A program made the translations under genes and the position numbers. Below, one piece after another: positions 3,158-46,409 of a stretch of DNA of 64,000 nt (the first letter of the stretch is position 1; every line of letters begins with the position of its first letter). Below the pieces are notes generated by a model. It saw nothing but the letters and a program-made list of their open reading frames with translations. It ran no database searches and had not been told where the DNA came from. Origin of the DNA: a virus; IMG/VR virus record IMGVR_UViG_3300023184_009676, positions 1 to 64,000 of that record; one strand, written 5' to 3'.

Positions 3158-3165
3158 GTGTAATA
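3158..3165 (+). promoter_or_regulatory. GTGTAATA late-promoter-like motif before the large fibre gene
   Basis: GTGTAATA ends 7 bases before the ATG at 3173. The same octamer with almost the same spacing precedes the genes at 15102, 15406 and 19908, and close variants precede several others. A second TATAAT-like stretch lies at about 3135-3141. Confidence 0.5.
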
Positions 3166-7690: not shown

Positions 7691-8515
7691 ATGAAAAAAT
7701 TAATCTTAACAAATTGTAAAATTTGCGGAGAAGTGAAAAGTTCCAGAGGATTTTCTTTTCATATTTCTCAATCTCATGGTATTTCTGTCGAAAATTATAT
7801 TTTAAAATATGAATTAAATAATGAACCACCAAAATGTAAATGTGGATGTGGGCAAATTGTAACTATCCGTAATTATTGTATTATGGATTATAAAAATAGA
7901 CATTGTCCTACTTCTGGTTTCCAAATTGGTGAACCAGTAAAGAGGGGTAATCCTGAAAAATATAAAATTAATTTAAAAAAAGGAATAAATAATTATCATA
8001 AAAAAATGAGAAAAGAAAATCCATTATATAATAGTGGAAAAAATAATAATTTTTATGGAAGATCTCATTCAGCTAAAACTAAAAAAATAATTAAGGAAAA
8101 AGTAATTGAACAAATAAAATCTGGAAATCACGCTTTCATAGGCAATATTAAATCTAGAAGTAAAAAAACAAGTTTAGAAATAAAATTTGAAAAACATTTA
8201 CAACAAAAGAACTTAGATTATGAATATAATTTTAAAGTTAGCTACCCATGTAAAGATGGATATTTAAAATATAAATATTATGATTTTTATCTTAAAGATT
8301 TTAATTTATTAATAGAAATTCATGGAAATTATTGGCACCCAAAAGAGAATAACAAAAATCTCTCCGAAATACAAAAGAAAAATTTTCAAAACGATATTTT
8401 TAAAAAAGAATTAGCTCAGAAAAATGGTTATAAATTAATAGCGATATTTGAAAACGAATTAGACAATTTTATAAAAAAAGAAGAACTCTCTTCTTTATTG
8501 GAGGTTGAAATCTAA
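7691..8515 (+). CDS. Free-standing homing endonuclease, PD-(D/E)XK type with NUMOD3
   Basis: A 274-aa protein. An N-terminal Cys/His cluster (CKICG, then HISQSHGIS; a second set CKCGCG...HC) looks like zinc fingers. A NUMOD3-like DNA-binding motif follows (NPLYNSGKNNNFYGRSH). The C-terminal nuclease domain resembles Vsr/EDxHD-type PD-(D/E)XK enzymes, with an acidic residue in YYDFYL and then LIEIHGNYWHP. It would cut DNA at specific sites and spread its own gene. Its ATG directly abuts the fibre stop and its end comes just before a lectin gene. It is even richer in A and T and in Asn/Lys codons than its neighbours, which suggests transfer. No intron is visible around it. Confidence 0.85.
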   Translation: MKKLILTNCKICGEVKSSRGFSFHISQSHGISVENYILKYELNNEPPKCKCGCGQIVTIRNYCIMDYKNRHCPTSGFQIGEPVKRGNPEKYKINLKKGINNYHKKMRKENPLYNSGKNNNFYGRSHSAKTKKIIKEKVIEQIKSGNHAFIGNIKSRSKKTSLEIKFEKHLQQKNLDYEYNFKVSYPCKDGYLKYKYYDFYLKDFNLLIEIHGNYWHPKENNKNLSEIQKKNFQNDIFKKELAQKNGYKLIAIFENELDNFIKKEELSSLLEVEI

Positions 8516-10540: not shown

Positions 10541-10798
10541 ATGTACCAAAAAAGACAATTTATGATCTTTAATGTTTCTGAACTAGAAACAATTGATTTT
10601 AGCGAGGTATTAGAGTCTTCTGCTGAAACAGTAAGAAAAAGCGTTGATGGGACCAAAACATTTGTTAAATGGGAGTCAGAAGATGACTCTATACCCCCTT
10701 CAGTAGATATTTTGTTAACAAAAGAAGGTCCTTATACTTATGATGAGATAGTTAGTATTTTGGATACCAGTGAATGGTCGCTCCGTATTATAGTGTAA
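10541..10798 (+). CDS. Small conserved phage protein, function unknown
   Basis: An 85-aa protein from the ATG at 10541 (MYQKRQFMIFNVSELETI...). I have seen this pattern in tailed phages of aquatic origin: a Y-x-R-x-F-x-IFNVSE start, then ESSAETVRKSVDGTKTFVKW and KEGPYTYDEI. Its function is not known to me. The in-frame ATGs at 10505 and 10562 are alternatives; I prefer 10541 because the family start includes the aromatic/basic residues before IFNV. It lies after the lectin genes and ends 10 bases before the next start. Confidence 0.7.
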   Translation: MYQKRQFMIFNVSELETIDFSEVLESSAETVRKSVDGTKTFVKWESEDDSIPPSVDILLTKEGPYTYDEIVSILDTSEWSLRIIV

Positions 10799-10800
10799 TT
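10793..10800 (+). promoter_or_regulatory. GTGTAATT motif before the gene at 10809
   Basis: GTGTAATT ends 8 bases before the ATG at 10809. It overlaps the stop codon of the previous gene, so the motif is kept even where there is almost no intergenic space. Confidence 0.4.
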
Positions 10801-10808
10801 AAATTTAT

Positions 10809-11870
10809 ATGTCAAATATTGTCTTATATCCAGGTTCAGGGATTTTGGAGTTCAATACAGGTGTTGCAGGGCAGTCTGTATTAGATAACTCTTTAACTGG
10901 AGCATCCCGCTTTTTTTTTAACAGCGGGGAGATTAATTTGACAAATTATGCAACTGGCAATTTAAATAGATTTACTATAGATGGTTCCCAAGGCAGACTT
11001 TTTCTTATTGATGACCAATTGTCAGGTAGTTTATTTAGCGTCAATACAATTGCTGGTTTACCAGTGGTTGAGGCTTTTAGTGACAATACAGTAACTTTGG
11101 GTCAATATGGTAAATATGATTTAGTTGTTACTGGAAATGCAGTTGGAATTGGAGCACTCCCAGATACAGGGTCGCAAAAGTTATGCGTATCTTTAAGTGG
11201 CATAACTCCTTATGTTTTGCCATCTAATCCATTGTGTGTGGTTGGTAGTGGAAATACTTATGTTCAGATAAATATTCAAAACCGCGCAACTGGTAATAAT
11301 GCTTCAACAGATTTAATTATTACTGCAAATGATGGAACAGATAGCTCTTACTATCTTGATCTTGGATTAAATAACGTAGGATACAATCAAGCTGCATATG
11401 GGAATGTTTCTGGGCATGACGGATATTTATATGTTAATGGGGGTAATTTAACAGTTGGTACTCAAACTGTTGGAACGGCAGTTGAAATTCATGCAGGTGG
11501 TACAGCAGACGCAGACCAAGTTGCTAATTTAAATGCTACTGGAATTTGGTTCAAGCCAGTTACAACATTTATAAGTGGTTTAAATTTAAGTGGTTGTTTA
11601 GGTTTCTCATCCCAAACTTCTGCTTCTAGTTTTACTCTTGGTAACAATCCATTTTATGTCCATACTGGCGCCGCCGCAACATGGACGCTACCAACAATTG
11701 CAAGTACAAGTGGCCGCACTTATTTAATTAAAAACAAAGGGTCAGGATTAACCCTTTCTGGGAATGGTTCTGATACTCTTTATTCCTATAAAGCAACAGG
11801 AGTTTTTGTGTTAAATTCTGGAGATGCTAGTATAATTGTTAATGATGGCACAAATTGGTCAATTTTCTAA
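10809..11870 (+). CDS. Tail fibre / structural protein
   Basis: A 353-aa beta-rich protein (starts MSNIVLYPGSGILEFNTG) with repeated short strands rich in Gly, Thr and Asn. The C-terminal third, around TWTLPTIASTSGRTYLIKNKGSGLTLSGNGSDT to the end at SIIVNDGTNWSIF, resembles the capping domain found at the end of many phage fibre proteins (roughly residues 290-353). It has no signal peptide. Its neighbours on both sides are fibre, lectin or secreted proteins. Assigned as a virion-surface protein from composition and context. Confidence 0.65.
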   Translation: MSNIVLYPGSGILEFNTGVAGQSVLDNSLTGASRFFFNSGEINLTNYATGNLNRFTIDGSQGRLFLIDDQLSGSLFSVNTIAGLPVVEAFSDNTVTLGQYGKYDLVVTGNAVGIGALPDTGSQKLCVSLSGITPYVLPSNPLCVVGSGNTYVQINIQNRATGNNASTDLIITANDGTDSSYYLDLGLNNVGYNQAAYGNVSGHDGYLYVNGGNLTVGTQTVGTAVEIHAGGTADADQVANLNATGIWFKPVTTFISGLNLSGCLGFSSQTSASSFTLGNNPFYVHTGAAATWTLPTIASTSGRTYLIKNKGSGLTLSGNGSDTLYSYKATGVFVLNSGDASIIVNDGTNWSIF

Positions 11871-11876
11871 TATTTT

Positions 11877-12398
11877 ATGAATAAATTAAAAGTGTTTTTA
11901 GTAGTGCTGTTCTTGGGGGTATTTTCTTTAATTGGAGCTCAGTACTTAATGGACTTTGACTATGGTAATATTAGTAGCGACGGGAGTGGAAATATTAATG
12001 CATCAACAATAAATATAAATAGTGCCTTTATCATCAGAAACAATGCCACAGTCCCAACATTAGTTCAAAATGTTAGCAGCTCACTTGTTTCATCATCTTC
12101 ATTAACTGGAAACGACGGTTTGATGCAATTGACTTATACTTGTACAATATCGGGTCAAGCCAGTACTTCCAACTATTTTACAATTACTCTGGGAGGGGCC
12201 GCAACTTCCACAAATTCATTAATTGTGATTCCTTGCCCTAATACTACAACAAATGGCGCAAGTTTAGCGACTGGCAATGCGACAATAAATCGTTTACTTG
12301 TCACGGCTAGTTCAAATTCTTTTCTATTAAGTACTGGCCCATCTCTCCCCGCAATTTCAGCCACTCACGGTTTAGCGATTCGAGTATTTCGACAATAA
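11877..12398 (+). CDS. Secreted beta-rich protein, tandem copy 1
   Basis: A 173-aa protein with a clear signal peptide: a short basic start (MNKLK), a hydrophobic stretch to about residue 20, and a predicted cleavage GA|QY leaving Gln at +1. The mature part has low charge and is rich in Thr, Asn and Ser, with two Cys (in YTC and IPC) that could pair. It ends LAIRVFRQ. It lies 6 bases after a fibre gene and 17 bases before a paralogue that is about 70% identical by eye. The export signal argues against an ordinary cytoplasmically assembled virion part. I do not recognise the family. Confidence 0.75.
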   Translation: MNKLKVFLVVLFLGVFSLIGAQYLMDFDYGNISSDGSGNINASTININSAFIIRNNATVPTLVQNVSSSLVSSSSLTGNDGLMQLTYTCTISGQASTSNYFTITLGGAATSTNSLIVIPCPNTTTNGASLATGNATINRLLVTASSNSFLLSTGPSLPAISATHGLAIRVFRQ

Positions 12399-12415
12399 AT
12401 TAGAATATAAAATTT

Positions 12416-12937
12416 ATGAATAAATTAAAAGTATTTTTAGTGGTGTTATTTTTTGGAGCATTTTCCTTAATTGGTGCCCAATATTTAATGAATTTTGATT
12501 ATGGTAATATTACTAGTGATGGGACTGGAAATATTACTGCGTCAGCAATAAATTTTAATAATGCTTTTAGGATCAGAGCCAATACTACAGCCCCAACGCT
12601 AGTTCAAAATGTCAATAATACGGCGGTTACATCGTCTTCTTTAACTGGAAATGATGCTGTAATGCAGCTAACTTATACTTGTGCGGCGTTAACTCAACCT
12701 ACTGTATCCAATTATTTTACAATTACTTTAGCGGGAGCAGCAACTTCAACAAATTCATTAATTATAATTCCATGCTCTAATAGTACAACAAATGGCGCAA
12801 ATTTAGCAACTGCCAATGCAACACTAAACCGCTTGCTCGTTACAGCTAGTTCAAATTCTTTTATATTAACCGTTGGCGCATCTGCCCCAACTGCATCAGT
12901 CACTCATGGTTTAGCAATTCAAGTATTCCGACAATAA
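12416..12937 (+). CDS. Secreted beta-rich protein, tandem copy 2
   Basis: A 173-aa paralogue of the gene before it, equal in length and aligning without gaps by eye. It has the same signal peptide type (MNKLKVFLVVLFFGAFSLIG, then A|Q) and the same two Cys positions. Differences are concentrated in the mature beta strands (for example NFDYGNITSDGTGN against DFDYGNISSDGSGN). The next gene begins 4 bases later. As with copy 1, the function is unknown; export to the periplasm or cell surface is inferred from the signal sequence. Confidence 0.75.
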   Translation: MNKLKVFLVVLFFGAFSLIGAQYLMNFDYGNITSDGTGNITASAINFNNAFRIRANTTAPTLVQNVNNTAVTSSSLTGNDAVMQLTYTCAALTQPTVSNYFTITLAGAATSTNSLIIIPCSNSTTNGANLATANATLNRLLVTASSNSFILTVGASAPTASVTHGLAIQVFRQ

Positions 12938-12941
12938 AATT

Positions 12942-13490
12942 ATGTCATCATTTGATAGCACAATTAGACTTAGGCAGCTCAATTCTTCTGAATTGTCTGG
13001 ATATATTTCTTTGGTTTGCCAAAGTTTATTATCGGGTGTCACAGGCATTCAAACTGGAAATTTAACTGGCGCATTTTATCCTTTAAATGGCAATCCTAGT
13101 GGATTTGTAGTTTCTGGTCAAACTGGAGTTTTTATGACCCAGTCAAATTTAAATAGCCTTTATTCTCAAACAATTTCATACGTTGCTGCAAATTATTATC
13201 CTGTTTCAAATCCAAGCGGCTATATTTCTAGTGCCACCATTCCTGCAATTTTATCTTTTGTTACAGGATGCTCAAGCGGCGTAAGCAGCGAATTTGTTCC
13301 TTTTTATTCTGGTGGCGCTCCATATACCTTTTCAAATACTCCAAGGGTAGTTTGCTCATTTCAAAATGCAATAGATTCTAATGTATACGCCACTTCATTA
13401 GGCAATATTTTACCATATGGATTTTATATAAATTATAGCCAGCCAATTGCGCAGAGTGGATATTATTTAAATGTCGTTTCAACATTATAA
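12942..13490 (+). CDS. Short fibre: shared anchor plus lectin-like tip
   Basis: A 182-aa protein. Residues 1-100 copy the anchor of the giant fibre at 3173 (MSSFDSTIRLRQLNSSELSGY, NPSGF, SQTGVF, LNSLYSQT). The last ~80 residues (TPRVVCSFQN to the end at YLNVVSTL) resemble the H-type-lectin / gp53-like beta domain that often caps phage fibres. It ends in TAA, and only one codon later an ATG in the same frame opens the next fibre gene. The shared anchor indicates that this protein and the giant fibre dock to the same place on the tail, either alternatively or together. Confidence 0.7.
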   Translation: MSSFDSTIRLRQLNSSELSGYISLVCQSLLSGVTGIQTGNLTGAFYPLNGNPSGFVVSGQTGVFMTQSNLNSLYSQTISYVAANYYPVSNPSGYISSATIPAILSFVTGCSSGVSSEFVPFYSGGAPYTFSNTPRVVCSFQNAIDSNVYATSLGNILPYGFYINYSQPIAQSGYYLNVVSTL

Positions 13491-13493
13491 CCT

Positions 13494-15056
13494 ATGATAA
13501 GTTTATTCCAAAATGCAAAAATAGGCATCATTGATACAAGTGGTCAAATTGTTAATAGTACCAGCGGCAATGTATCTTTTGCTGCCAGACCATTTGTAAA
13601 TGGAACTGGACTTTTATTAAGCGGCGAAGCTGCGCCTTCTGGAATTTATGGTTCTCAATGGACCACAACTGGATCAAAAATTTATTATAATTCAGGTAAT
13701 ATTGGCGTAAATAATTCTAATCCACTTTATAAATTAGACATCTCTGGAACAATTGGAAACAGTAATGGCGGTCTTAATTTTGCAACTTCTGGAATTCAAT
13801 TATTAGTTACTGGGGGCACAAATAGCGGAGTAAATACTGGCATAATTGGCATTTGGATTTCTGGGGTTTCGCCTAGTATACCAAATCCCTATACTGGCGT
13901 ACCTCAAATAGGTTGGATTGCTCAATTCCCAAATGATTTAACATTGCCAAATAGAATAGCCAGAGTAACTGGTAGCGAATTTGCAAATACATCATATTGG
14001 AGAATATACTTTGATTCTTCTTTTGTAATTAGCTATCCACACACATATTACTCTAATCCAAATGTTAATATTATTCCTTATGGCGGTGGAAATGTTGGCA
14101 TAGCAAATAATAATCCTCAATATACTCTTGATGTGAGTGGAATGGGTAATTTTTCAAGTGGATTGTATGTTAATAGAAATCCTGTATCAACTGGGGAACC
14201 AATCGCCATTTCTTTAAGCGGCAGTGTTGTATTATTAACTGGCGGGCAAAATGTGACGGGAGCTAAAACTTTTAATGATGCAGTTATTTTAAGTGGAACA
14301 GCGGGACCCAATTCAATTACTCTTTCTGGAAATGGAACTGCCGTTTTTTCTAATGGAGCTGGGGCTTATTCAAATTTTTTACCAGGAGTATTTACTGTAA
14401 ATGATAATGCGGGCAGCATTCTTTCATTTGGTAATACTGCGGGCGGAGGGAGTCTTAGTGTTCAATCTGATGCAACTTTTTCAAAACGTCCAATTGTAAA
14501 TGGAACAGGAGTATTACTAGTTGGAGAGGCAGTAAGTCAGTGGGGATCATATGGTAGCGCGATTTATTATGACGCTGGATCAGTAGGCATTGGTACAGCC
14601 ACTCCATCTTACACTCTTGATGTCAATGGTTTTGTAAACACAAATAATGGATATAAAATATATGACGCAACTAATGACTTTACATGGACATTAAGTTACG
14701 GCGATCCTTATTTATCTTTTGACGCTCCAGATTCTGCAAACTTATTAACTTTATTAAATGGTAGCCCAGGGACCGTTGGAATAAATACTTACTCTCCCTC
14801 TTCATCTTATGCTCTTGATGTTAATGGATCAATACATTGCAACGGAAAAATAACTGCAGTTGGCGGCGTTGATCCGCCCTATGTTTTATTTGACTTAAAT
14901 ACAAGACAATCTGTCAAAATAAGAGTCTTGGCAGAAGTACCCATTGATAAACAATCTGGGGCAGCACAATTTTGGAACTTAGATACAAAAAAGATGGAAG
15001 TCTATATTGCATCTGAAGACAAATTTTATGACTTGAATGGCAATTTATTACAATAG
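13494..15056 (+). CDS. Tail fibre shaft and tip protein
   Basis: A 520-aa fibre. It lacks the anchor and starts directly with shaft-type sequence (MISLFQNAKIGIIDTSGQIV). Modules of the kind RPxVNGTGxLLxGEA and LYKLDISGTIGNSNG recur and are shared with the giant fibre at 3173. The C-terminal ~70 residues form a different domain (YVLFDLNTRQSVKIRVLAEV ... DKFYDLNGNLLQ). It is in the same frame as the preceding anchor-lectin gene, separated by TAA and one codon, so readthrough could supply an anchor. It ends in TAG. Confidence 0.7.
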   Translation: MISLFQNAKIGIIDTSGQIVNSTSGNVSFAARPFVNGTGLLLSGEAAPSGIYGSQWTTTGSKIYYNSGNIGVNNSNPLYKLDISGTIGNSNGGLNFATSGIQLLVTGGTNSGVNTGIIGIWISGVSPSIPNPYTGVPQIGWIAQFPNDLTLPNRIARVTGSEFANTSYWRIYFDSSFVISYPHTYYSNPNVNIIPYGGGNVGIANNNPQYTLDVSGMGNFSSGLYVNRNPVSTGEPIAISLSGSVVLLTGGQNVTGAKTFNDAVILSGTAGPNSITLSGNGTAVFSNGAGAYSNFLPGVFTVNDNAGSILSFGNTAGGGSLSVQSDATFSKRPIVNGTGVLLVGEAVSQWGSYGSAIYYDAGSVGIGTATPSYTLDVNGFVNTNNGYKIYDATNDFTWTLSYGDPYLSFDAPDSANLLTLLNGSPGTVGINTYSPSSSYALDVNGSIHCNGKITAVGGVDPPYVLFDLNTRQSVKIRVLAEVPIDKQSGAAQFWNLDTKKMEVYIASEDKFYDLNGNLLQ

Positions 15057-15083
15057 GAATCTTATTTATTAAAAAATTAAATT

Positions 15084-15091
15084 GTGTAATA
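15084..15091 (+). promoter_or_regulatory. GTGTAATA late-promoter-like motif
   Basis: GTGTAATA ends 10 bases before the ATG at 15102, in a very A/T-rich 45-base gap. Confidence 0.5.
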
Positions 15092-15101
15092 TAATAATAT
15101 T

Positions 15102-15353
15102 ATGAACATTGAACCAAAAATAGTAACAGATACAAAAACCGTCACCTCATCATTCTCACTCTCTAAATTGAATGATTCTCATGTGACCATGGATGACCCA
15201 ATGAGAAAAACATTGAGAATTCAGTTGGTTGAGGCTATGCCACCCCAAAACGTAATCATTTCTGGTGAAGAATATGATTCTTTGGGTCAATGGACTGATG
15301 AATCATTGAGCGCCTTTCTGGTCGCTAAATATGGTCTTGTAGCTGCTTCCTAA
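15102..15353 (+). CDS. Hypothetical 83-aa protein
   Basis: A small, hydrophilic protein (starts MNIEPKIVTDTKTVTSSFSL) with a conserved-looking centre, MRKTLRIQLVEAMPPQNVIISGEEYDSL in outline, and an acidic/aromatic C-terminal part. No motif was recognised. It has its own GTGTAATA motif and is followed by another gene with the same motif, so it looks like an independently transcribed late gene within the fibre region. Confidence 0.6.
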   Translation: MNIEPKIVTDTKTVTSSFSLSKLNDSHVTMDDPMRKTLRIQLVEAMPPQNVIISGEEYDSLGQWTDESLSAFLVAKYGLVAAS

Positions 15354-15390
15354 GTCTTTTAAAATATTAGAAAAACAATATCCATTTGCC

Positions 15391-15398
15391 GTGTAATA
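15391..15398 (+). promoter_or_regulatory. GTGTAATA late-promoter-like motif
   Basis: GTGTAATA ends 7 bases before the ATG at 15406, the same spacing as before the genes at 3173 and 19908. Confidence 0.5.
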
Positions 15399-15405
15399 TA
15401 CTTAT

Positions 15406-15768
15406 ATGGCAAATGTATATGATATTTCAATAGATCAAGGCTCCAGTTTAAACTTAACCTTAACAGCGACAGACTCGGCTGGGGCTTATTTAAATCTCTC
15501 TGGATATGCTGCCAGAGGCAAGATTAAGTATGGTTATGGTTCTACCGGTTATTTGCTTGATATCAATCCCACCGTTGATTCTAGTTACGTTAGCGGATTA
15601 ATTAATATTTCTCTTAGTGCAACCAGTACTTCTCTGCTTCCCATCACAAAAGCAGTCTATGACATAGAAGTTTATACTACGGGAACAATTGGAGCAATTG
15701 CCAGTGGCTATACTTTTAAAGTACTAAAGGGATACGCCGATGTTTCCCCAGAAGTAACAACAAGTTAA
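15406..15768 (+). CDS. Phage virion protein with beta-sandwich (BppU-N-like) domain
   Basis: A 120-aa protein of a type widespread in tailed phages. The start motif xVYDISIDQGSSLNLTLTATD is followed by LNLSGYAARGKI, then AxYDIEVYTTG and a final VLKGYADVSPEVT. This layout (QG, then LTGYxAR, then YDxE, then a V.S.EVT end) is typical of baseplate/tail-associated beta-sandwich domains that help anchor fibres. It stands 4 bases before a collagen-like fibre gene, which supports a fibre-attachment role. Confidence 0.7.
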   Translation: MANVYDISIDQGSSLNLTLTATDSAGAYLNLSGYAARGKIKYGYGSTGYLLDINPTVDSSYVSGLINISLSATSTSLLPITKAVYDIEVYTTGTIGAIASGYTFKVLKGYADVSPEVTTS

Positions 15769-15772
15769 ACTT

Positions 15773-17512
15773 ATGGCTGATATTAACGTGACAGTTCAGG
15801 ATAATCCTCTTAGCATTACTGTTAATACCAATCCTAATGTTTTTATCTCTGCTGCAACTGCTGGAGTGCAAGGACCAGCAGGTTCACAAGGGGCTTCTGG
15901 AGTTGCAGGACAATTAATTAGTTTAAATAGTTTAACAGGGTATGTTGACATCACTGGACTTGGCAACATCTCTATAACAACTGGTAGCAGTTTAATTTAT
16001 GTTTCTGGAGCAACTGGAAACTTTTACCCAATCAACAATCCAAGCGGATATACTGCAACTGGATTTGTTACTGGAATAAGCGGTTATTTACAAAATCAAA
16101 TAACATCTTTAAGTGGGACACTAACTGGTAATTATGTTTTAAATTCTTCTACCGGCGTTTTTGCCACAAGTGCAAATTTGATTTCAACTGGCTCTAATCT
16201 TCAAAATCAGATTAATTCTTTGAGCGGAACCTTAAATGGAAATTACGTTTTAAAATCCGCCACAGGAGTATTTGTAACAACTGGACAAACTGGAGTTTTT
16301 GCTACTTCAGCCAATCTTATATCAACGGGTTCAAATTTACAAGGTCAAATCTCAAGCCTTAGTGGAACTTTAACTGGCAATTATATATTAACAAATACTG
16401 CAACAGGAATTAGCGGCACATTAGCCTCATCTATTGCATCAACTGGTTCAAACTTACAGGGGCAAATAAATTCGTTGAGTGGTACATTAACAGGAAATTA
16501 CGTCTTAAATTCTAGTACTGGAATATTTGTTACAACAGGTCAGACAGGCAGCTTTGTAACAACAAATCAAACTGGTAACTCAAATACTTTGGGTGGACAA
16601 TCAGGTTCATATTATTTAAATTATGCAAATATGACTGGTTCTATAAATGGGACTGGTTCATTTGTTACTGCAAGTCAAACTGGCCAATTTTATCCAAATT
16701 CAAATCCATCTGGATATATTACTGGATTTAATTCTGGCATTTACGTTCAAACTGGACAAACTGGAAACTTTATAACTACAAGTCAGACTGGACAATTTTA
16801 CGCCAATTCAAATCCTTCTGGTTATATTACGGGGGTAAATCTTTCAAGCTATATTACTACTGGACAAACTGGAGTTTTTGCCACTAGTGCTAATTTAATC
16901 CTAACGGGTTCAAATCTTCAAGGTCAAATATCTTCTTTAAGCGGAACTTTGACTGGTAATTATGTTTTAATTTCAACCTCAACAGGAATTAGTGGAATTT
17001 TATCCTCTTCTATTGCTTCAACAGGGTCGAATTTACAAGGGCAAATTAATTCATTAAGTGGAACTTTGACTGGAAATTATGTTTTAAAATCTTCTACTGG
17101 CGTATTTGTTACTACAGGTCAAACTGGGGCTTTTTATCCAAATAGTAATCCATCTGGTTTCATCTCTGGTTATCAAAATGCCCAAGGATGGATTGGTATC
17201 ACTCAATCCCCAACATATTTTAATATAGACTCGCCCAATATTGGCAACTCTTATACAACTTTTGGAATTGGAGCATCTCAAGATGTTTCAATTACTCCAA
17301 ATAGAAATTTATTATTAAGTCCTGTTGGCAAAGTGGGCATTCAAAACTCTAATCCAGTATATGATTTAGATGTAATAGGCTCGGGGAATTTTAGCAACAA
17401 TCTTTCTGTTTCTGGCAGCATTTATACTGCTAGTGGGTTCCAGTTGTATGATGCCGGATTGGGGCGCATAGTTACAATTACCTGCTTTAATGGAATTTTA
17501 AGTGTTGATTAG
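15773..17512 (+). CDS. Tail fibre with short collagen-like stretch and TGQTG repeats
   Basis: A 579-aa fibre. After a short N-terminal beta domain (MADINVTVQDNPLSITV) come about five Gly-X-Y triplets (GVQGPAGSQGASGVAG), indicating a trimer. Many repeats of the forms SSLSGTLTGNYVL, ISTGSNLQGQI and VTTGQTGVF follow; the same modules are found at residues 820-1043 of the giant fibre. The C-terminal part contains VYDLDVIGSGNFSNNLSVSG, again like other fibres here. It ends in TAG. It is probably an alternative or accessory host-binding fibre. Confidence 0.78.
   Translation: MADINVTVQDNPLSITVNTNPNVFISAATAGVQGPAGSQGASGVAGQLISLNSLTGYVDITGLGNISITTGSSLIYVSGATGNFYPINNPSGYTATGFVTGISGYLQNQITSLSGTLTGNYVLNSSTGVFATSANLISTGSNLQNQINSLSGTLNGNYVLKSATGVFVTTGQTGVFATSANLISTGSNLQGQISSLSGTLTGNYILTNTATGISGTLASSIASTGSNLQGQINSLSGTLTGNYVLNSSTGIFVTTGQTGSFVTTNQTGNSNTLGGQSGSYYLNYANMTGSINGTGSFVTASQTGQFYPNSNPSGYITGFNSGIYVQTGQTGNFITTSQTGQFYANSNPSGYITGVNLSSYITTGQTGVFATSANLILTGSNLQGQISSLSGTLTGNYVLISTSTGISGILSSSIASTGSNLQGQINSLSGTLTGNYVLKSSTGVFVTTGQTGAFYPNSNPSGFISGYQNAQGWIGITQSPTYFNIDSPNIGNSYTTFGIGASQDVSITPNRNLLLSPVGKVGIQNSNPVYDLDVIGSGNFSNNLSVSGSIYTASGFQLYDAGLGRIVTITCFNGILSVD
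16090..17130 (+). repeat. Imperfect LSGTLTGNY / TGQTG repeats
   Basis: Degenerate repeats encode LSGTLTGNYVL, STGSNLQGQI and TTGQTGVF units, related at the protein level to the block at 5630-6300. They are long enough to act as recombination targets between the two fibre genes. Confidence 0.8.
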
Positions 17513-17524
17513 TTATAATAGATT

Positions 17525-18721
17525 ATGAAAAAATGGTTTTTAACAGTTTTTTTGGTGATGACGGCATTTTTATTAAATGCGCAATATAGCCCCATTACAA
17601 TCAATCGAAGTGGTACAGTAGTAAACACTAATGAAAGTATCATATTTTCAAATAATATTATTTTATCATCTGGCAATCTTTATATTACCAATCATGCTTA
17701 TGATGTATCCACAAGCCAGCTTGACCCGATTGCTAACGAATATGTCACGGCTCAATATGTCCAGTCTATAATGGCTGCTAACTTTGACCTATATTTCTCG
17801 ACTAATTCTTCAGGGATTACAGTAACAAATGGTACGGGAGCCTTGTTTATTCCCTCGACAATGGTGCTAGCAAATCCAATAACTGCCCAGACCAACACAA
17901 TCTCATCATTCACAAACGGGACGTATTTTACAGCTCGTCTCCAGACCAACTCCATCTCTTACATCCAGTCTGTTCCCATTAACCTTTATACCTACGTCCA
18001 AATCACTGGCGGTGGTTCAATTACAGCTCATCCTGAAATATGGCTTTACAATACCAACGGGACAATTGTTAAGCTTGGATATTCTTCGGACAATACTTAC
18101 AGTTCGGACATTGCGGTTCCCGTGAACTTGTCAATCGCCATGACCAATACAGCTTACCTTAATGTGAATCTAACTAACAGCCCGCAGCTACTCCTGCGTT
18201 GGTATGTCACCTCATCTCAAGGCAATCCAACGTGGAGATTCTTGATTGGTGCTGGCAATGCTTCGCACATTACTGTTGGAACTATTCCGTCAGCAAATCA
18301 AAATTATGTGGGCACGTTCACTGGCACTCATATTGGCGATGGAGCTGGTTTAACAAACATATACTCGACAAATATCGTGACACAGGCTGGAACATTGGCG
18401 GTGGCCAGTGCCGCAACGAACTATACGGTCAACCTGCTTCCTGGTGGAATGGCCAATCTGCAGCAGATCTATCTAGCCAATACCAACTGTTATATCACAT
18501 TTACGGGAACGAATGTTATTGACTCTCAGCGTGCAGTATTATTCAGAGGGTGGACGAATATAGTAGTTAGCACATTAACCTTTGCTCTTCCTACGTGGCG
18601 CACAAACTATACGACGGCAAACTACTTTGTGACTAATGGTCAATCTGCTGTATTCAACTTCTATAATACAGATACAACTGGATCTAACGTGATGGTGTCT
18701 GATGGAGGACGATGGAAATGA
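17525..18721 (+). CDS. Secreted fibre-like protein
   Basis: A 398-aa protein with a signal peptide (MKKWFLTVFLVMTAFLLNA, cleavage before QYSPI, Gln at +1). The mature protein is almost all beta-type sequence, rich in Thr and Asn. It includes a module THIGDGAGLTNIYS of the kind common in phage-fibre and surface repeat proteins. Codon use is clearly richer in G and C (for example ACG, GGG, CTC) than its neighbours, which suggests recent acquisition. It is preceded by TTATAATA 4 bases before the ATG. Its stop is shared with the start of the next gene (ATGA). The function is unknown; it is probably exported. Confidence 0.7.
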   Translation: MKKWFLTVFLVMTAFLLNAQYSPITINRSGTVVNTNESIIFSNNIILSSGNLYITNHAYDVSTSQLDPIANEYVTAQYVQSIMAANFDLYFSTNSSGITVTNGTGALFIPSTMVLANPITAQTNTISSFTNGTYFTARLQTNSISYIQSVPINLYTYVQITGGGSITAHPEIWLYNTNGTIVKLGYSSDNTYSSDIAVPVNLSIAMTNTAYLNVNLTNSPQLLLRWYVTSSQGNPTWRFLIGAGNASHITVGTIPSANQNYVGTFTGTHIGDGAGLTNIYSTNIVTQAGTLAVASAATNYTVNLLPGGMANLQQIYLANTNCYITFTGTNVIDSQRAVLFRGWTNIVVSTLTFALPTWRTNYTTANYFVTNGQSAVFNFYNTDTTGSNVMVSDGGRWK

Positions 18722-19545
18722 AGTGGGCTATTTCTATATTATTATTTATCTGTCTGACGGCGCGTTCACAGTTTGATTTTAGTGGACCAATGGTTGGTGC
18801 ATTTGGGGGCTCTGCTCCTGTTAGTCAGTATAATTTTAAACAGAACTTAGTAATGTATTTTGCATGGGAAGAAACAAATGCTGCTACTCTAAGAACGAAT
18901 TACAATTCTCCACCACTATATTCAATAACAAACTCTGCGGCAGCTACACCATGGGTACAAACTAATGGTATTGTATTGCAAGGCGGTTTTAATAAAAGTT
19001 CTACGGGGGGCTATAGAGGAAATGGGCCAGCTATAAACTGGACTAGCAATGATTTTACCATGACCGCATGGGTAAAATTAGTCACAGGTACATATACATC
19101 ACAAGGTATATTTGCCTATGGCGATAATACTGGCGGTGGAAACGGTGTAAGCATTGCATATCGCGCTTCAACTGATGCGTCTCCCAGAACTAAAAGTATC
19201 ATGGCTACAGCATACATGACAAATGCTTCTACATATGTTCAAATCTTGTCTGGATTAAATTCAATGACCGAAAATACGTGGACACATGTTGCATTTATTA
19301 GAAGAAACTTGACGAATTATCAGATATGGTTAAATGGTGTTGTAAAATTTTCGTCCAATTATAACGCTGTTATTGGTAATGGCTATACGGCTGGTGCAAC
19401 TAATGTGGAAATAGGTATGATCAATGCGGGTTATCCGATTCAAGGAGCGGTTGACGAATTTGGTGCGTGGAGCAGAGCATTATCAACTAATGAAGTTCTT
19501 CAGCTATATAATTCTGGCGCAGGTTGGGGATATACAAATTTTTAA
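18718..19545 (+). CDS. Secreted LamG-domain lectin-like protein
   Basis: A 275-aa protein from the ATG at 18718, which forms an ATGA overlap with the previous stop; an in-frame ATG at 18712 is an alternative. A signal peptide (MKWAISILLFICLTARS) precedes QFDFSG, again with Gln at +1. The mature part is a Laminin_G_3-type lectin: LVMYFAWEE, a central WTSNDFTMTAWVKL, NTWTHVAFIRR, IWLNGV and the end VDEFGAWSRALSTNEVLQLYN. The three LamG genes at 8517-10536 lack a signal, so this is an exported variant of the same fold. It probably binds glycans at the cell surface or periplasm. Confidence 0.78.
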   Translation: MKWAISILLFICLTARSQFDFSGPMVGAFGGSAPVSQYNFKQNLVMYFAWEETNAATLRTNYNSPPLYSITNSAAATPWVQTNGIVLQGGFNKSSTGGYRGNGPAINWTSNDFTMTAWVKLVTGTYTSQGIFAYGDNTGGGNGVSIAYRASTDASPRTKSIMATAYMTNASTYVQILSGLNSMTENTWTHVAFIRRNLTNYQIWLNGVVKFSSNYNAVIGNGYTAGATNVEIGMINAGYPIQGAVDEFGAWSRALSTNEVLQLYNSGAGWGYTNF

Positions 19546-19548
19546 TTT

Positions 19549-19851
19549 ATGAAAAAACTAATATTAAGTTTATTACTATTGTCTTATTGTTTAATTTATT
19601 CACAGGAAACTACAAATCTTCCTGCGTTTACAAATCCAATTATTTTAAGACCAGGCCAAATGGGAGACATCATCAATTATGTTCAAAGTCTTGGGGCAGG
19701 CACAAATTCAATTTATGCCATTACTTCTACCAATTTGCAATGGGTAAATGTTATCAGAAATGTGGATGGAACAAATGATTACTTTCAGGTGTCTGCTATT
19801 GTAAATGTACCAATTACTAATGTTGTAAACTCTTCAACCAATAACCCATAA
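19549..19851 (+). CDS. Small secreted protein
   Basis: A 100-aa protein with a signal peptide (MKKLILSLLLLSYCLIYS, cleavage before QETTN, Gln at +1). The mature ~80 residues include PGQMGDIINYVQSLGAGTNS and many Asn/Thr. The start is 3 bases after the stop of the LamG gene, so it is probably in the same transcript as the two exported proteins before it. It has no recognised family, Cys residues or membrane anchor in the mature part. Confidence 0.65.
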   Translation: MKKLILSLLLLSYCLIYSQETTNLPAFTNPIILRPGQMGDIINYVQSLGAGTNSIYAITSTNLQWVNVIRNVDGTNDYFQVSAIVNVPITNVVNSSTNNP

Positions 19852-19892
19852 TAAATAAAACAACCACGTCCTAATACATGGGTCTTATAAAA

Positions 19893-19900
19893 GTGTAATA
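19893..19900 (+). promoter_or_regulatory. GTGTAATA late-promoter-like motif before the neck genes
   Basis: GTGTAATA ends 7 bases before the ATG at 19908, at the boundary between the fibre/secreted block and the neck/tail block. Confidence 0.5.
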
Positions 19901-44714: not shown

Positions 44715-45671
44715 ATGGCAGACACAAAAAGCTTGGCTTACGCAAAACAAACGAAGAAAAATGTAGATAGTCTAAATACTAACTCTCTCATTACTGCCAC
44801 TGTCATTGCCAATTACGGCGATCCAGGGCTCGATGAAGATTATTATTTTGATGTGTTGAGTAGATATGTTGTATGCGTTATAGAATCTTCCAATAGATTA
44901 ATTACTTCAAACGGGTGGGCAAATGGAAAAAGTCTAATAGTCGTAAAAAGACCAGAGAGTTTATGGATAAATTATCAAGGTGGCTTTACTAACGATGTAG
45001 CCACTCAGCAAAGAATAGATTATAATTTAAATACAAATGTCGGTCCAGCGGGTAATTACGCCACGAATGTTATACCAAGAATCAATTATCCTTATCAAAT
45101 GGGGGAAACTATTCAGGTTAGAAGACTGACCGAAACAGTATCTTCTTTAGTTCAAAATAATTATCAAAAGTTCTTTTATTCACAATGCACAAACAGTTTG
45201 ACCGACACAAGATATAAAAACTATGGAATCTGGCATGAACAAGGGATGGGTACACTATCTTACTACGGCAGTACTCAACAAGCACAAATAACAGAAAAAA
45301 CTTTGGCAAATATCGCGGGTTATCCAAATTATTTTAATATTCGCCTTAATAAATATCAATATGAGGCGTTTATGCTTACAAAGTATCCTGAATTGACAAA
45401 AGCCTTAACTCCATTTTTTTTAAGTAAAACGACTCCAAATCAAGCATACAAGAGTTATCAAGGAGGGTATCTTTTCTTTCAAAATGAATTTATTGCAATA
45501 AATAGAGTTCTATATGAAGATGTAAATGCTGGTCCCTTAACAAAACAAAGATTAAGCATTGATAGCTGTATACCGCTTATCGTTACCACGCCAAATTCAT
45601 TTTCTGTGCCAAGCACAAGGGCAACAGCAACGATAAGTTATACGCCTACATATATAACAAAAAGTAATTAA
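44715..45671 (+). CDS. Structural protein at the end of the tail-tip operon, 318 aa
   Basis: A mixed alpha/beta protein (starts MADTKSLAYAKQTKKNVDSL) with few repeats. It contains VIESSNRLITSNGWANGKSL, YGIWHEQGMGTLSYYG and the end TATISYTPTYITKSN. I do not recognise a family. It closes the plus-strand tail block; its stop codon touches the stop of the minus-strand gene at 45672 without any base in between. Confidence 0.5.
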   Translation: MADTKSLAYAKQTKKNVDSLNTNSLITATVIANYGDPGLDEDYYFDVLSRYVVCVIESSNRLITSNGWANGKSLIVVKRPESLWINYQGGFTNDVATQQRIDYNLNTNVGPAGNYATNVIPRINYPYQMGETIQVRRLTETVSSLVQNNYQKFFYSQCTNSLTDTRYKNYGIWHEQGMGTLSYYGSTQQAQITEKTLANIAGYPNYFNIRLNKYQYEAFMLTKYPELTKALTPFFLSKTTPNQAYKSYQGGYLFFQNEFIAINRVLYEDVNAGPLTKQRLSIDSCIPLIVTTPNSFSVPSTRATATISYTPTYITKSN

Positions 45672-45677
45672 TTACTT
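45664..45677. terminator. AT-rich palindrome between convergent stops (possible weak bidirectional terminator)
   Basis: AGTAATTAATTACT is a perfect 14-base palindrome flanked by A-rich sequence on the left and T-rich on the right. It spans both stop codons. The stem lacks GC pairs, so intrinsic termination would be weak. Confidence 0.3.
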
Positions 45678-46409
45678 CTTTTTGGAAGCGGCTTTCTTTT
45701 TAATTCTTTCGATCAATTCAAATTGCTTGAATTTAGGAATATCAGAGACTGATTTCAATTCTTGTGCTCCATCAAACTTTTCTTCAATGAGCTTTTCTTT
45801 TATCTTTTCAAAAGTCACGGAGTTTGCCGCCATAATCTCTTTTAAGAGAGAACTTGAAGAGTCTTGAGCTTCAGCGTCTTGCGAAGGAGTGCCGCCAATC
45901 TCTTCTTGGGAGACAATATTAATGCGAAGAAAATTTCTAACGCAGCGAACAAATGCTCTATTTTCAGCGATTGGACCCAAATAATTCTTTGCAAAGCTAG
46001 TTGTATTATATGGACTTGCATCCCCAATGCTAGTAAATTTGATGACTCTTCCCTCTGTTTCAAAATTTGGAATCCAACTCATGGCGCAAGTAGCAATAAC
46101 ATAATCAGAAGCGGGAGAACTGGTTGTATATTCTACCGAATTATAACCCCTGATTTGGGCTAATTCTTTAATTCCCGCAAGGAGAATCATTAAATCTTTG
46201 TCTTCTAGTCCCTCAATGGTCTTCGGCACGGGTTTATTGTATCTTTCAAAATTAAGCTTATTGGGGACAAGATGCTTGGGGTTAATCATCTTTCTCCAGT
46301 CAATTAAATTATCCGCCCCATAGATATAATTAATTGCAGGACTACAAATCAACCCATATTCGTTTCTTGAAATGACTTTACTTGGAATGCATGTATTTTT
46401 TTCGCTCAT
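45672..46409 (-). CDS. Rad52-family single-strand annealing protein (putative)
   Basis: A 245-aa protein. Residues about 100-161 contain the pattern of Rad52/Sak-type annealing proteins: a beta strand YVIATCAMSWIPNFE, then FTSIGDASPYNTTSF, then a helix AENRAFVRCVRNFLRI. The later half is charged and helical and ends KKKAASKKK, which could bind DNA or partners. It would coat single strands and anneal them during phage recombination. The promoter upstream (minus strand) has a TTGACA box. It lies on the minus strand between tail operons, with glycosyltransferase genes upstream of it in the same direction. Confidence 0.65.
   Translation of the reverse strand: MSEKNTCIPSKVISRNEYGLICSPAINYIYGADNLIDWRKMINPKHLVPNKLNFERYNKPVPKTIEGLEDKDLMILLAGIKELAQIRGYNSVEYTTSSPASDYVIATCAMSWIPNFETEGRVIKFTSIGDASPYNTTSFAKNYLGPIAENRAFVRCVRNFLRINIVSQEEIGGTPSQDAEAQDSSSSLLKEIMAANSVTFEKIKEKLIEEKFDGAQELKSVSDIPKFKQFELIERIKKKAASKKK

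Follow-up and report, generated by a model that had tools for sequence, protein, structure and literature searches.

The window examined here comprises bases 1-64000 of a viral contig of 97,275 bp, and on its plus strand lie five genes predicted to encode secreted proteins, arranged in two units that are separated by five genes without signal peptides. Unit A consists of A1 (11877-12398; 173 aa; signal peptide 11877-11939, Gln at 11940) and its paralogue A2 (12416-12937; signal peptide 12416-12478), the two proteins being 75% identical. Unit B consists of B1 (17525-18721; 398 aa; signal peptide 17525-17581, Gln at 17582), a fibre-like protein with a GDGAGLTNI-type fibre motif; B2 (18712-19545; signal peptide 18718-18768, Gln at 18769), a lectin-type protein with a LamG (Laminin_G_3) domain; and B3 (19549-19851; 100 aa; signal peptide 19549-19602, Gln at 19603), a small protein that we call QM. 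B2 has an ATG at 18712 and another at 18718, of which we prefer the latter, as it is backed by homologues.

Signal peptides were predicted by a crude rule for Sec/signal peptidase substrates based on n-region charge, the h-region and the -3/-1 residues, and A1, A2 and B1-B3 have the properties expected of Sec/SPI substrates in all three respects. The first-pass annotation had placed five signal-peptide genes at these positions, and this was borne out: the open reading frames are present and their N-terminal hydrophobicity maxima (12-residue windows; 2.62-3.06) stand apart from those of the other 40 genes of the window (1.78 or less). Applied to all 86 genes of the 97,275-bp contig, the rule returned these five as the only SPI-type genes, together with two lipoprotein genes, with a background of 1.2% of shuffled and 0.7% of random N-termini passing. 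All five fall in a run of ten genes (P about 2.5e-4), so that the earlier description of exported genes embedded in the fibre block holds for their clustering, although they form two separate units rather than one set. Cleavage is predicted (slash) at LIGA/Q in A1 and A2, LLNA/Q in B1, ARS/Q in B2 and IYS/Q in B3; for A1 and A2 automatic placement gave VFS/LIGAQ, and we preferred LIGA/Q, with alanine at -1. Glutamine therefore comes first after each predicted cleavage, in five of five genes, as had been claimed. Counting A1 and A2 once because they are 75% identical paralogues, four independent occurrences against a proteome glutamine content of 3.7% give P of about 2e-6. Sec export with glutamine at +1 is thus a well-supported prediction for the five proteins.

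Such a glutamine rule is known from host proteins of the Bacteroidetes (PMC5837995, PMC10653852), where on average 71% of signal peptides leave Gln at +1, against less than 9% in most Chlorobi and a continuum elsewhere (PMC5837995). Across the phages that carry relatives of unit B (see below), 22 of 31 signal peptides with hand-placed cleavage sites leave glutamine (13 of 22 when QM proteins are left out), which is close to the Bacteroidetes mean. This agreement favours a host among the Bacteroidota, and we consider such a host likely from the sequence pattern. The first-pass attribution to the Bacteroidetes rule is in this way supported by the glutamine counts and is qualified on two sides: two scans of genome contigs by homology returned no host genome for B1, and Shine-Dalgarno sites, which are few throughout the cassette phages (7-33%, but 50% in the eight genes of one of them, L018), are scarce in Bacteroidota and also in some Verrucomicrobiota (PMC10783764). 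The signal-peptide rule found no signal-peptide genes in the Verrucomicrobia phage P8625, and one Gln+1 gene each in Cellulophaga phi38:1, Flavobacterium FCL-2 and Croceibacter P2559S, three phages being too few to settle the host. The literature searched contained no link between glutaminyl cyclase and Verrucomicrobia. A host among the Selenomonadaceae, suggested by terminases only 35-37% identical to that of L009, was not accepted. As a separate observation, 74% of the window phage genes have T at -1 of the start codon, a feature that is not diagnostic of the host by itself; together with the few Shine-Dalgarno sites this start-codon context may help host assignment.

The exported proteins carry fibre-type sequence, including fibre-type repeats, or LamG/PKD lectin domains, the features by which virion tail fibres are recognised. 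All five are of SPI and not SPII type, without the lipobox of lipoproteins such as Llp of phage T5, and the scanned proteins showed neither a lipobox, a C-terminal sorting domain of type IX secretion (T9SS) cargo (NCBIfam/Pfam) nor any other outer-membrane anchor. As no anchor or outer-membrane secretion signal was found, the sequence offers no support for delivery beyond the periplasm, and the earlier suggestion that the proteins coat the infected cell was an overreach. No window protein matched the PADLOC models of anti-phage defence; for the QM protein of phage L012 a weak match to 2TM (E 0.003, residues 8-46) was dismissed. An AlphaFold model of the B1 fibre (pLDDT 36) was discarded, and that of QM (pLDDT 76) had no PDB or BFVD match at E < 0.1.

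Comparison of the paralogues indicates that the export signal itself is constrained. In the signal peptides of A1 and A2 we counted nine synonymous and two non-synonymous differences (dN/dS about 0.03), against a dN/dS of about 0.24 in the mature part, and from this stronger purifying selection on the signal peptide we conclude that export is a selected function. Within the QM family, all 11 proteins, each from a different contig, have glutamine at the predicted +1 position, while the signal peptides upstream of it vary. In the sister phage L008, the counterpart of B1 shares its signal peptide exactly and has the mature start QYSPITIN, followed by another payload; this payload matches the beginning of the fibre of a second sister, L018.

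Both units have been subject to exchange. Identity between L008 and the window is about 85% as far as 11549 and 95% from 12935 on; between these borders (11550-12934, plus strand), where the window has the end of the 10809 fibre gene that encodes its C-terminal tip, followed by A1 and A2, L008 has another fibre tip and no signal-peptide genes. Judging from these borders, A1/A2 and the adjoining fibre tip were replaced together as one unit. The C-terminus of B1 showed no significant similarity to the tip of the neighbouring virion-type 10809 fibre (BLASTP, E = 0.16). L018 shares 90% DNA identity with the window phage from 19877 on, and at the place of the B cassette (17525-19876, plus strand) it has a different cassette resembling that of L012, with a QM protein 89% identical to the L012 one. 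From the presence of an L012-like cassette beside downstream DNA of 90% identity we conclude that the B unit was exchanged, the border lying at 19852-19877.

Ten viral contigs beyond the window phage carry genes for signal-peptide fibres, LamG proteins and/or QM. Counterparts of B1, B2 and B3 are adjacent in L012, and all three are present in L018, whose contig begins part-way through the fibre; L019, L034 and L035 combine a small signal-peptide protein with LamG and QM, L009, L010 and L011 have fibre and QM, L022, with a T4-like neck protein, has QM plus a fibre, and in L036 QM is the sole cassette gene recognised. In an all-against-all comparison the window phage had only cassette proteins in common with L009, L010, L011, L013 and L019, the fibre and one distant DnaB-like pair (24%) in common with L012, and outside the cassette only two lipoproteins and a small protein, encoded as one block, in common with L022. 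L009, L010 and L012 have some tail genes in common, and L019, L034 and L035 have head genes in common, so that the carriers represent several lineages, not all of them independent. The central 230-240 residues of B1 are about 80% identical to the fibres of L009-L011 while the flanks differ, and by this pattern B1 is a mosaic of the kind seen in receptor-binding proteins. The cassette separates capsid from tail genes in L010 and follows the tail-tip gene in L009 and L012, and hence it is not bound to one structural position. From these alignments we conclude that the genes at 17525, 18712 and 19549 form a mobile cassette that passes between phages with otherwise unrelated genes, which the first-pass annotation had not recognised. 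The export of fibre- and lectin-like proteins is thus a tradeable function common to otherwise unrelated tailed phages rather than an oddity of one genome, and the QM family offers a short marker for locating further cassettes and their hosts.

The cassette had no match in 50,697 phage records, and hence no cultured relative among them. INPHARED returned no match to B1, A1, QM or the L012 fibre, nor to the probable capsid and the 1159-aa structural protein of the window phage, and a search for further homologues of A1/A2 or B2 found none. Signal-peptide proteins also occur downstream of capsid or head genes at L025:6275-6814, L010:6506-6940 and L034:8616-9197, a third position for exported proteins in the late blocks of cassette phages.

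As to expression, the heptamer GTGTAAT occurs nine times in the window against 7.8 expected, that is at about chance frequency; eight of the nine lie on the plus strand close upstream of late structural gene starts (at 3158, 10793, 15084, 15391, 19893, 21540, 25669 and 37523), and the motif is found in L018 too. This placement makes it a likely late-promoter motif of the phage. The copy at 10793-10799 would serve the unit including A1 and A2, that at 15391-15397 the unit including B1-B3, and that at 19893-19899 lies just past the cassette border. None stands directly before A1, A2, B1, B2 or B3, and we infer that both units are read together with late genes. The Bacteroidota promoter TTTG/TAnnTTTG was not enriched (one found, four expected).

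We propose, with a probability of roughly 0.42 for the explanation as a whole, that these genes encode adhesin- or lectin-type proteins which the phage exports through Sec/SPI, partly from a mobile cassette, and which mask receptors. Made together with the late structural proteins, A1, A2 and B1-B3 would be exported by the host Sec machinery and cleaved by signal peptidase I to leave glutamine first; the mature proteins would reach at least the periplasm, where they would probably gain a pyroglutamate N-terminus, and would be released at lysis. Either from the periplasm or after this release, the fibre and lectin domains would bind phage receptors or surface glycans, so blocking superinfection and keeping progeny from being wasted on receptor-bearing debris, while the B unit (fibre, LamG and QM) would move among otherwise unrelated phages with its payload swapped and its signal peptide kept. 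The binding and masking step taken separately we put forward tentatively, as somewhat less probable than the explanation as a whole. Mosaic payloads under a constant signal peptide, together with A1/A2 travelling with a fibre tip, suggest receptor dependence, and the joint replacement with the fibre tip strengthens the earlier guess of a superinfection block, which is our best guess for the function. Against the proposal stand the missing anchor or outer-membrane secretion signal, the failure to match any of the phage records and the lack of real similarity between the B1 C-terminus and the neighbouring fibre tip; moreover, A1 and A2 may be mere hitch-hikers with the fibre tip, lectin repertoires fit other adhesive roles too, and many exclusion proteins are made early (PMC9586334), unlike the late position of these genes. 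If true, receptor masking would define a family of exclusion proteins open to testing and perhaps relevant to the little-known field of Bacteroidota phages.

Other readings of the same genes must be weighed against receptor masking. The exported proteins could be lectin-type morons that alter the surface of infected or lysogenic cells (adhesion, biofilm, glycan capture) to the benefit of host or phage, a reading which we regard as unlikely. The LamG and PKD domains and the integrase of L009 speak for it, as does the location in L009 and L012 behind the tail tip and ahead of lysis-like genes; the genome position is comparable to that of lambda Lom, an outer-membrane barrel of the Ail family whose gene, as here, lies among tail-tip and fibre genes. 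The Lom barrel domain was, unlike in lambda, not found in the exported proteins, and neither the lack of a recognisable outer-membrane anchor or secretion domain, nor the late structural units in which the genes are placed, nor the regions read of the window phage, which showed no sign of lysogeny, suit a moron. We would give distinctly less credence to an accessory role in lysis, exerted in the periplasm or at the outer membrane, for genes that neighbour holin- and spanin-like ones. Small transmembrane and/or lipoprotein genes do follow QM in L009, L019, L034 and L035, and the lipoprotein block that the window phage has in common with the T4-like L022 lies beside the L022 cassette, but the QM signal peptide is cleavable with an invariant glutamine and lacks an anchor of the i-spanin type, fibre and LamG payloads are no known lysis proteins, and no transmembrane gene follows B3 in the window.

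An equally improbable reading is that the proteins are exported first and are added to the virion, as fibres or decorations, in the periplasm or the medium at lysis. It draws on the fibre-type motifs, on signal-peptide genes directly behind capsid genes in L010 and L034 and on a signal-peptide fibre in the usual receptor-binding-protein slot of L009 and L012, and it is opposed by the different position of the cassette relative to the tail genes in L009/L012 and L010 and by the many fibre genes without signal peptide in the window phage. The fuller version, in which Sec-exported receptor-binding or decoration proteins join particles only there and the cassette is an exchangeable kit for host range or decoration, is slightly less credible again; to our knowledge such loading at lysis has not been described for tailed phages, and if true it would change the picture of tailed-phage assembly. 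Very doubtful, finally, is the idea that the N-termini merely mimic signal peptides, and that these hydrophobic stretches serve assembly or trimerisation, being removed or buried in the virion. A study of Porphyromonas gingivalis phages reports predicted signal peptides on some capsid proteins, probably cut by the prohead protease (PMC10367356); here charge, h-region, -3/-1 residues and +1 glutamine are all as expected, the glutamine is invariant in the 11 QM proteins and the A1/A2 signal peptide is under purifying selection. On balance the B cassette probably acts on the envelope of the infected cell rather than as ordinary virion parts.

Phage genes for export under the glutamine rule are already published: Nixviridae phages of P. 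gingivalis have five such genes with unassigned function, which like those described here combine Sec/SPI signal peptides with Gln at +1 (PMC10367356). Compared by description, the passage on those genes mentions, unlike here, no fibre or lectin content, cassette, exchange among unrelated phages or payload swap (PMC10367356). T5 Llp is likewise a phage-made exported envelope protein for which the benefit is the one proposed here, superinfection block and sparing of progeny from debris (PMC9586334). It is an early-made lipoprotein that jams FhuA (PMC9586334), whereas the present proteins are soluble SPI substrates with fibre or lectin domains in late units, and no homology is claimed. The cultured Flavobacterium phage FCL-2 has a gene (45363-45806) in which a TYS/Q signal peptide is followed by the fibre motif VGIATTTPTETLDVNG, and the protein is at least 99% identical in 78 Flavobacterium phage records; unlike the cassette genes, it is a single gene outside any fibre block and without cassette partners. 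A limited literature search found no mobile multi-gene cassette of exported fibre or lectin proteins in unrelated phages.

Three further features were noted in passing. Within the fibre block of the window, 7691-8515 holds an HNH/homing-endonuclease-type gene. At L004:16964-18017 (about 94964-96017 of the contig), two lipoprotein genes (16964 and 17634) flank one for a 64-aa protein; this block is 45-51% identical to that next to the cassette in L022, and it is possibly a lysis unit of spanin/holin-like type. L004:9226-12126 contains a ribonucleotide reductase-like gene with what was judged by eye to be an intein-like insertion.
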